Positions 112-2,119 of a stretch of 26,232 nt of DNA are shown piece by piece. Under the pieces are notes generated by a model that was not told where the DNA came from, did not search any database, and saw only the letters and a program-made list of their open reading frames with translations. The translations under genes and the position numbers were made by a program. Position 1 is the stretch's first letter. Every line of letters begins with the position of its first letter. The stretch is from a virus. The DNA lies in IMG/VR virus record IMGVR_UViG_3300046004_000051, positions 1-26,232 of that record; one strand, 5' to 3'.

Positions 112-837
112 TTAAACCGGGGCAATATTGATCACGCGGCGCGCCACGCTATCGGCTTTTTTGACCCCGGTCCCATGGGCAGGAAAACCCACAATAACGG
201 TTCTATCGGCGCGCGCGCACAATTGGCAGGTGGCGCACGACACGTCATCTCTTGCAATAGCAGGGCAGATGACCACGCGACGGCCAGCAGGTGTCAACAG
301 GTTATCGGCCTGAGTTACGGGCAGAACAACGCACACGGGCAGGCCGGTATCGGCCAGGGTATCGGCATGGTCCAAATCATTGGCCGATAGGTTGACAGTA
401 AACCCGCCCAAGTTAGCTAACTCGATCAGGTCCAGGTTATTACCCAGGCCAATATCGTGATGGGTATACGTAAACCCGCGCTTACCCCAATTGGCCTCAA
501 TCAACATATGCAACGCGCCCGGATCGATCATCCCGCCAATATGGGGCAGGTCACCGGCTTGATTGTGGCGCCACAGCGACTCATCCGGCAACGCGGCCAC
601 TGTGGCGCAAAATACTTCAATGGTCACACCACGCGCCTGGGCAGTGACTGCATTCCAATGCAAGCGAAGCGGCCCAGTCTCTGCGTAGCAGCCATTATTA
701 AAAAACGGGCAGGTTGGGGAACACGACTCGCGGGTAGTCGTGCTAACGGGTATTGGACCCGTTTTCACGTTTGCCGATACGGGCGTCAAGTGGAAATACT
801 GGGTTGCAACGATGGGATTGAGTTTGAATATTGTCAT
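112..837 (-). CDS. Cysteine-rich phage protein, DUF7227-like (possible Fe-S protein)
   Basis: This 241-residue protein matches, from memory, a phage/plasmid family annotated DUF7227, recognised by the run KTGPIPVST, then RESCSPTCPF and GCYAETGPL, then HNQAGDLP, a FTYTH strand, VNLSAN, and near the C-terminus VIVGFPAHGT. Two cysteine clusters are visible: C39, C43 and C50, and C191, C201, C204 and C207. This spacing could bind an iron-sulfur cluster or zinc. The GCYA element recalls the Gp37/Gp68 (DUF5131) phage proteins, but homology is not shown. No reaction is established. Start ATG at 837 has an AGGA site 7-8 nt upstream, and family members often begin near residue 16, so the N-terminus may be extended here. 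A strong leftward promoter candidate lies at 879-908. Confidence 0.75.
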   Translation of the reverse strand: MTIFKLNPIVATQYFHLTPVSANVKTGPIPVSTTTRESCSPTCPFFNNGCYAETGPLRLHWNAVTAQARGVTIEVFCATVAALPDESLWRHNQAGDLPHIGGMIDPGALHMLIEANWGKRGFTYTHHDIGLGNNLDLIELANLGGFTVNLSANDLDHADTLADTGLPVCVVLPVTQADNLLTPAGRRVVICPAIARDDVSCATCQLCARADRTVIVGFPAHGTGVKKADSVARRVINIAPV

Positions 838-878: not shown

Positions 879-908
879 ATTATAGCCCAATGGGTTTTCC
901 CATGTCAT
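879..908 (-). promoter_or_regulatory. Leftward sigma70-type promoter for the DUF7227-like gene
   Basis: On the minus strand, -35 ATGACA (908-903, 5 of 6 consensus) and a perfect -10 TATAAT (884-879) are 18 bp apart. Transcription would start near 872, giving a leader of about 35 nt before the ATG at 837. A CCCAATGGGTT motif (886-896) lies inside the spacer, one base from the -10, and the dyad at 908-923 touches the -35. Both are classic repressor positions. Confidence 0.7.
886..896. repeat. Isolated copy of the CCCAATGGGT motif, inside a promoter
   Basis: CCCAATGGGTT is the leftmost copy of the motif that forms the tandem array at 1162-1263. It occupies the spacer of the leftward promoter, so a bound protein would block RNA polymerase. 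Confidence 0.7.
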
Positions 909-923: not shown

Positions 924-950
924 GTTTGTAAACTATTTTCTAGGGATAAA

Positions 951-961
951 CCCTATGGGTT
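951..961. repeat. Variant copy of the motif (CCCTATGGGTT)
   Basis: One central base differs from the array motif, and the CCC/GGG arms are kept. A change at the symmetry centre is what a dimer-binding site would tolerate best. Confidence 0.55.
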
Positions 962-1155: not shown

Positions 1156-1184
1156 ATCATACCCAATGGGTCAATTATTCCCAA
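1156..1184 (-). promoter_or_regulatory. Second leftward promoter candidate at the array edge
   Basis: On the minus strand, TTGGGA (1184-1179, 4 of 6) and TATGAT (1161-1156, 5 of 6) are 17 bp apart. The array copy at 1162-1171 abuts the -10, the same geometry as at 879-908. Transcription would run about 300 nt toward the DUF7227-like gene. The match is moderate. Confidence 0.35.
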
Positions 1185-1263
1185 TGGGTTGACCATACCC
1201 AATGGGTCAATTATGCCCAATGGGTTGACCATTGGACAATGGGTTGACCATACCCAATGGGTT
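1162..1263. repeat. Tandem array of CCCAATGGGT, 18-bp period (iteron- or operator-like)
   Basis: Copies start at 1162, 1180, 1198, 1216 and 1253, with a degenerate copy around 1236-1245. The higher-order unit is 36 bp: 1162-1197 and 1198-1233 differ at only two positions. Each motif has CCC and GGG arms arranged as CCCA-A-TGGG, symmetric around one base. The 18-bp spacing is a little under two helical turns. Such arrays serve as plasmid or phage origin iterons, terminase small-subunit pac sites, or clustered operators, and the sequence alone does not decide. Confidence 0.85.
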
Positions 1264-1349
1264 ACTATTGCCCGATACACAATGATTCCAGGTGCATAAT
1301 GATAACCCATTGGGTTACTGTTACCATATGCACAATGATTCCAGATGCA
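1259..1349. repeat. Imperfect 38-bp direct repeat, 53 bp apart
   Basis: Segments 1259-1296 and 1312-1349 align without gaps with six mismatches. Both start with GGGTTACT from a CCCAATGGG-type motif and share the core CACAATGATTCCAG. A third partial core is at 1366-1376. This looks like an older, diverged duplication of a longer repeat unit beside the array. Confidence 0.7.
1304..1316. repeat. Motif copy in opposite orientation (AACCCATTGGGTT)
   Basis: This 13-bp copy is symmetric about one central base. The centre is T rather than A, so it is the reverse complement of the array motif, with full AA and TT flanks. Confidence 0.7.
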
Positions 1350-1463: not shown

Positions 1464-1476
1464 AACCCAATGGGTT
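1464..1476. repeat. Rightmost full copy of the motif (AACCCAATGGGTT)
   Basis: This full 13-bp copy sits 80 bp before the terS start. A TTTACA hexamer (1454-1459) precedes it, but no good -10 follows at the right distance, so its effect on rightward transcription is uncertain. Confidence 0.65.
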
Positions 1477-1514: not shown

Positions 1515-1544
1515 TTGCACCATGTTCCATCACGGTGTGATAGT
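1515..1544 (+). promoter_or_regulatory. Weak rightward promoter candidate before terS, with dyad
   Basis: TTGCAC (1515-1520), an 18-bp spacer and an extended -10, TGT-GATAGT (1536-1544), would start transcription around 1550, only a few bases before the terS ATG. ATCAC-GGT-GTGAT (1529-1541) forms a dyad over the -10. The -35 match is poor, so this is tentative. Confidence 0.3.
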
Positions 1545-1555
1545 ATCCGGCCACT

Positions 1556-2119
1556 ATGAATAATGAATTCACAGGCGCATCTGTCACAACAGATCAGGTT
1601 ACAAATCAAGTCGAATTGCCTGATTGGCTCAGTGCGCCCGAACAAACTATCCCGATCTCCCCTACCGTCATCAAGGCTCAAACTGACTTGATGCTTACGC
1701 AGTACGAAATCGTGTTCATGCGCGTGATTGAACAGATTGCCGCCGGCCGCACGTTCCAGTCCGTGATCAAGGATGACTTTCGTGAGTTTGAGCATGGCGC
1801 GTTCCTTCGGTGGATCAAGCGCGATCCAGAACGGCACCAGTTGTACAAAGAGGCCAAGGAGCTTCGCACGGAGACATGGGCCAACGAGATCATCGAGATT
1901 GCCGATGCCGACGACTCTATAGAAGACGTTGCCCGGTCCAAGCTGCGGATCGACACTCGCAGGTGGTTGATGGGGACTGACAATCGTAAACAGTACGGTG
2001 AGGTCAAGACTATCGACCACGGTGGTCAGATCAGTATTATTGGCGCACTGAGTGCGGCCGACAACCGAGTGATCGACATGGCCGATATAGAAGATGTAAC
2101 TCCAAGGATCGACGACTGA
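1556..2119 (+). CDS. terS: Terminase small subunit
   Basis: This 187-residue protein lies directly before, and overlaps, the large terminase. It has the usual layout: a variable N-terminus, a helical DNA-binding part (about residues 50-90, including a WIKRDPE turn), then the conserved KEAKELRTETWANEIIEIAD and RRWLMGTDNRKQYG segments. TerS recognises the packaging site on concatemeric DNA and hands it to TerL. The ATG at 1556 lacks a clear Shine-Dalgarno, and a promoter candidate would start transcripts almost at the ATG, so a leaderless message or a later start is possible. Its DNA target could be the repeat array just upstream. Family assignment rests on motif memory and gene order. Confidence 0.9.
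   Translation: MNNEFTGASVTTDQVTNQVELPDWLSAPEQTIPISPTVIKAQTDLMLTQYEIVFMRVIEQIAAGRTFQSVIKDDFREFEHGAFLRWIKRDPERHQLYKEAKELRTETWANEIIEIADADDSIEDVARSKLRIDTRRWLMGTDNRKQYGEVKTIDHGGQISIIGALSAADNRVIDMADIEDVTPRIDD

Follow-up and report, generated by a model that had tools for sequence, protein, structure and literature searches.

A cluster of short palindromic repeats beside the terminase small-subunit gene terS raises the question of what purpose such repeats serve in a virulent-looking phage. The window analysed here comprises all 26,232 bases of an IMG/VR virus record and is a genome fragment from a P22-like podovirus whose TerS is of the Sf6 type. A first-pass annotation had offered three readings of the repeats: the operator cluster of a regulator, an origin with iterons, or the terminase recognition (pac) site. 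Comparison with related phages indicates that a small phage-made regulator very probably docks at the CCCAATGGG boxes, from which it would turn one gene set off and the virion-assembly genes on.

The boxes are confined to one divergent region

Nine boxes of the ACCCAnTGGGT type are found at 885-1475, between a leftward gene on one side and terS on the other (Table 1). The 9-bp core CCCAnTGGG is present in eight exact copies (886, 1162, 1180, 1198, 1216, 1253, 1306 and 1466), a variant of it, CCCTATGGG, lies at 951, and a scan of the whole window revealed no exact core outside the 885-1475 region. Allowing at most one mismatch, CCCAATGGGT gave 14 matches in the window, a count that takes palindromic boxes on both strands, and all of them fell inside 886-1475. 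The 100 shuffled controls averaged 2.1 matches and peaked at 7, none of them reaching 14. The first-pass annotation had thus correctly described the motif as symmetric about one central base and restricted to the divergent region.

Using Tandem Repeats Finder, the central part was resolved into an 18-bp period with 5.8 copies (1158-1263) and a 36-bp unit with 2.1 copies at 97% match (1158-1232), so that the 18/36-bp array and the duplication of the 36-bp unit noted initially both hold. The detail needs revision on two points. Instead of six copies in about 100 bp, the stretch 1162-1262 comprises five full boxes (1161-1171, 1179-1189, 1197-1207, 1215-1225 and 1252-1262) and one degenerate half-box, GGACAATGGGT, at 1234-1244, and by eye the two 36-bp units differ by a single base and not by two. 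Additional repeats of 17-18 bp, of the type TGCACAATGATTCCA, extend from the box cluster to a G-rich block (1267-1372); they also occur in locus L003 and were not seen in the more distant relatives viewed.

Table 1. Features of the divergent region and its flanking genes (window coordinates)
Feature	Position	Strand	Basis or remark
DUF7227 gene, first of leftward operon	112..837	-	PF23872, E 6.7e-84
Leftward promoter	879..908	-	-35 ATGACA (908-903), 18-bp spacer with box, -10 TATAAT (884-879)
Putative operator box GCCCAATGGGT in leftward-promoter -35/-10 spacer	885..895	.	Motif scan, placement in promoter
Putative operator box variant ACCCTATGGGT	950..960	.	Motif scan
Central box cluster (18/36-bp array)	1161..1262	.	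Motif scan, Tandem Repeats Finder
Putative operator box ACCCATTGGGT	1305..1315	.	Motif scan
terS-proximal box ACCCAATGGGT, probable activator site	1465..1475	.	Centre 71 bp from -10 start
terS promoter, extended -10 TGA-TAGTAT, no recognisable -35	1538..1546	+	Layout common to relatives
terS, Sf6-type terminase small subunit, first late-operon gene	1556..2119	+	PF20901, E 3.8e-18; PHROG 1482

The array is conserved and exists in two box classes

Relatives were gathered through TerL similarity. Clusters of CCCAnTGGG occupy the same divergent region in these TerL relatives, and dozens of related uncultured podoviruses carry them. In 18 genomes or large fragments we counted 133 boxes in the 29 kb left of terS (1.6 kb per genome) versus 26 in 585 kb elsewhere, a density ratio of about 100. 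Frequent copies inside structural genes, or lack of conservation in close relatives, had been named at the outset as observations that would speak against a functional array; such copies are rare in the related phage genomes counted, and the array is kept. A literature search for the box motif gave no relevant match, which agrees with the earlier remark that no described phage system was known to have it, and the single paper on DSL-LC05, a named relative, uses neither the word repressor nor the word repeat. In Rfam the only match was to a eukaryotic snoRNA, at chance level and well under the threshold.

The consensus of the boxes in class A is ACCC-A-n-T-GGGT (449 boxes). A set of phages, among them L015, L211, L214 and L248, possess AGCC-A-n-T-GGCT boxes instead. 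CCC-type and GCC-type boxes are distinguished solely by a symmetric exchange at base pair +/-4. CCCAn3TGGG repeats (L039, L040, L047, L048, L051, L054 and L079) were considered as a further variant class and set aside, since L048 and L054, for which enough flank is available, differ in their TerS, lack the HTH gene and contain only two or three such repeats.

A box lies in the spacer of a strong leftward promoter

The leftward promoter of the window matches the consensus at 11 of 12 positions. A leftward promoter with a box between -35 and -10 was recognised in 24 of 32 dereplicated loci, with the consensus TTGACA-16/18-TAtAaT, in which TTGACA is usually perfect and the spacer measures 16-18 bp. 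A rightward equivalent was found in none of the 32, and eight loci had no recognisable box-in-spacer promoter. The placement is precise: on the leftward strand a TATAAT-like hexamer begins 6 bp past the box centre at 25 boxes, versus a mean of 0.56 per offset. The GCC-type phage L248 has a leftward promoter of the same design, TTGACT-TAGTAAGCCATTGGCC-TATACT, with the box GCCATTGGC in its spacer. Judged by promoter anatomy, the spacer box is in a repressor position. We refer to the leftward operon as early on the strength of its promoter.

Some phages (L071, L074, L077, L056 and L276) have their leftward promoter roughly 500 bp farther to the left, at about 1.0-1.2 kb from terS. It is associated with a pair of boxes spaced 23-24 bp, of which the first occupies the spacer and the second sits immediately upstream of the -35. 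The leftward -35 region of the window is also surrounded by a perfect palindrome, TGTCACATAAGTGACA (905-920), and TCAACTGTGTCAATTGTGAC repeats related to it are present at 963-995 and 1129-1151. Palindrome and repeats together suggest sites of a second regulator.

Across relatives, the terS-proximal box lies at one-turn steps upstream of the -10

Transcription of terS is predicted to start at about position 1553, and the terS mRNA appears to be leaderless or nearly so, with the -10 hexamer, about 9 nt and the ATG following each other directly (1538-1558). Upstream of terS in relatives we observed TAnnAT or TACACT 15-16 nt before the ATG, and CACT (or ACT) abutting the ATG; neither a Shine-Dalgarno sequence nor a -35 was seen before terS in the relatives inspected. 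One of the upstream sets took ATGs after ACT, and a second set collected without such selection gives the same layout.

A box is present in 51 of 54 unique terS upstream sequences, always upstream of the -10 and never over it. The distances from box centre to -10 cluster at 32-35, 42-45 and 52-55, which are steps of about one helical turn, and values of 38, 63, 71 and 91 are rare. For the proximal box this register is pronounced (Rayleigh R 0.80 at 10 bp, permutation p 2e-4, jitter test p 5e-4; 33 dereplicated loci). Distances within the array showed no helical period (p 0.27), and the distance from the proximal to the next box gave a weaker 10.5-bp signal (p 0.007). We read the helical register as a sign that RNA polymerase would be contacted from one face of the helix, with a DNA loop as the alternative. 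The stepwise spacing of the proximal box bears on helical-face activation.

A small HTH protein is the candidate regulator

Nearly all boxed phages with enough flank encode an XRE-type helix-turn-helix (HTH) protein of 80-100 aa, whose minus-strand gene lies 2.6-5.2 kb to the left of terL and closes the leftward operon at its far end; across all these proteins, sizes are mostly about 70-110 aa. In the phage studied here the gene lies beyond the left end of the window and was read from the near-identical locus L001 (1821-2114, minus strand), where TerL and TerS match those of the window and the DUF7227 protein is 99% identical. In L001 a series of minus-strand genes ends with the HTH gene, which is convergent with the primase gene. 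According to the G006 genome map, the HTH gene alone among the leftward-operon genes recurs in most other genomes. The DUF7227 product was also considered as box binder and rejected, as its gene occurs in only 5 of the other genomes.

The HTH protein belongs to Pfam HTH_3/HTH_31, and the nearest PHROG has no assigned function. Its top profile match in the PDB is MqsA (E 6e-6), with residues 10-60 matching MqsA 73-123 in 3gn5 and the Lys of an xxKW motif aligned to MqsA Arg101. A profile was required for this match; phmmer with a single HTH sequence against the PDB gave spurious RNA polymerase matches only. The AlphaFold model (pLDDT 87) has an XRE fold and consists of a single HTH domain with a short helical tail, and its structural matches include HigA2, MqsA, Aca2 and P22 c2. 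MqsA binds ACCT-N3-AGGT, for which Asn97 and Arg101 are needed (PMC5422877).

Recognition helix and boxes change together. Further loci were found by a scan with the HTH alignment. Among 46 dereplicated HTH proteins with enough flank, 39 have a Lys in the recognition helix, and CCC..GGG clusters accompany every one of these 39; the Fisher test on these Lys/box counts treats related phages as independent and scores the truncated helix of L067 as non-Lys, and in the box counts beside HTH types a box matching both patterns is counted twice. GCC..GGC clusters occur with the His-type protein of L211 and the Asn-type protein of L015, while other Asn/Ser types had no recognised box array in the contigs searched (L242, L244-L247, L250, L228, L229, L271 and L273). 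Since the non-Lys proteins group loosely in the tree, the change from Lys to His or Asn would correspond to one or two evolutionary events. Even a distant phage (TerL 60%) pairs ACCCASTGGGT boxes with a Lys helix, GVPVSTLVKW. The two elements are also lost together: L055 has kept TerS and lacks both the HTH gene and the boxes, and L048 and L054, with a foreign TerS, have no HTH gene and no such array. A single recognition-helix residue and a single base-pair position changing together constitute a natural experiment in protein-DNA specificity.

A model for a leftward/late switch

We consider it likely that the boxes are operators of the phage XRE-type HTH protein, through which the leftward operon is repressed and the late operon activated. 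Of the readings initially proposed, that of an operator cluster gains strong support from the promoter anatomy and from the co-variation with a phage regulator. The HTH regulator, with its MqsA-like recognition helix, would bind each ACCCAnTGGGT palindrome, presumably as a dimer. In the -35/-10 spacer it would block RNA polymerase at the strong leftward promoter and so limit expression of the leftward genes, among them the one for the regulator itself at the distal end of the operon. At the terS-proximal box it would recruit or contact RNA polymerase and thereby turn on terS and the late genes. The middle boxes probably serve higher occupancy or the setting of a threshold. We infer binding, dimerisation, leftward repression, rightward activation and the early timing of the leftward operon alike from these patterns, and activation of the late operon is the least certain step of the model.

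More tentatively, we propose that in these apparently virulent, uncultured podoviruses a single MqsA-like mini-regulator may make up the whole leftward/late switch, that a near-leaderless terminase promoter is activated from one-turn positions, and that operator and helix have changed together into orthogonal groups, CCC/Lys and GCC/His-Asn. To judge from our searches, no earlier work describes an on/off switch of this kind in the large group of uncultured freshwater phages concerned. The model would provide abundant freshwater phages that are known almost solely from metagenomes with a gene-control circuit in which the regulator, its operator and two target promoters are named.

The p4 early/late switch of Bacillus phage phi29 (promoters A2b/A2c/A3) is functionally the closest parallel. 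In phi29 a single early protein occupies a number of inverted repeats located in a divergent region, and it both shuts down early promoters and switches on a late promoter whose -35 is poor (PMC3100819). Likewise, the same boxes here overlap a promoter that we take to be early and lie upstream of a late promoter without a good -35. However, neither the protein nor its sites are related to those of phi29: the targets of p4 are CTTTTT-15-AAAATG repeats, and p6 acts alongside it, whereas the candidate here is an XRE/MqsA-like HTH protein with short GC-rich palindromes, ACCCAnTGGGT, and repression would occur from the spacer. The CI proteins of lambda, 434 and P22 repress one promoter and activate another. 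They share with our candidate an XRE-type HTH and palindromic operators that lie between divergent promoters and overlap them, binding being presumed in the present case. In contrast to CI, the phage protein of 80-100 aa has no C-terminal dimerisation or autocleavage domain, an integrase is missing, and the promoter proposed to be activated is that of the terminase and late genes. With MqsA the candidate shares the recognition helix, N3-spaced ACC/GGT half-sites and the same arm and spacer design. Unlike MqsA, it begins near the HTH and has no N-terminal zinc domain, and a cluster of boxes with phage operons as targets takes the place of one or two operators. Mycobacteriophage L5-type stoperators are repressor-binding repeats that also occur in large number in one genome, but they are asymmetric and spread genome-wide, whereas the boxes described here are symmetric and limited to one divergent region.

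Alternative functions of the boxes

The same HTH protein might act as a repressor only and silence both the leftward and the terS promoter, for example through a loop between the proximal box and the cluster, in the service of immunity or pseudolysogeny. The spacer, where one box lies, is a place classically taken by repressors, HTH relatives are mostly repressors or antitoxins, and the register, together with the weak 10.5-bp phasing of proximal-to-next-box distances, could serve a repression loop. Nevertheless, we regard pure repression as unlikely. The proximal box never covers the terS -10 and stays upstream in register across several turns, and the terS promoter has no -35, as is often the case for activator-dependent promoters. 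Furthermore, 13 near-complete genomes gave no match to the tyrosine (PF00589) or serine (PF00239) recombinase families. Close TerL relatives in bacterial genomes reside on short contigs (3-36 kb), all from metagenome bins, some of them named Rhodoferax or Burkholderiales; none is on a plasmid, where all TerL matches are below 60% identity. The phages are thus probably virulent, and a developmental switch fits this better than immunity does. That the boxes are operators of some other phage or host protein, with an indirect link to the HTH gene, is in our view very unlikely. The link between HTH and boxes is drawn from sequence patterns, and the products of the DUF7227 gene and other leftward genes have no assigned function. 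However, the HTH gene is the one leftward-operon gene shared by most other genomes, it disappears together with the boxes in L055, and its recognition helix changes along with the box.

Clustered direct repeats close to A+T-rich DNA would also suit the iterons of a replication origin, the least probable of the functions considered. This reading was rejected because the gaps are irregular (15-60 bp and more) and without helical period, and no cumulative GC-skew extremum coincides consistently with the array; moreover, the boxes mark promoters and co-vary with the XRE regulator. A pac site bound by TerS would explain why the boxes lie near terS, and several relatives assemble as circular contigs, which is compatible with headful packaging. 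Yet L055 retains a homologous TerS and L278 retains TerL, both without boxes, the TerS proteins of CCC-type and GCC-type phages do not sort by box type, and the boxes occupy promoter positions. On this dissociation and the promoter geometry we rejected a pac function of the boxes, which we hold to be highly improbable. A different element stays with the terminase in phages without boxes, namely a G-rich block, GAGGGGGTGGGTAGGGCCGAGCGG, at 1378-1400 of the window, which in the phages usually lies 133-167 bp to the left of the ATG of terS. Of 53 unique upstream sequences 45 contain it, and 503 kb of sequence elsewhere yielded no copy. Since it survives in the box-less L055 and L278, the G-rich block could be the true pac/TerS site or, alternatively, a structured element.
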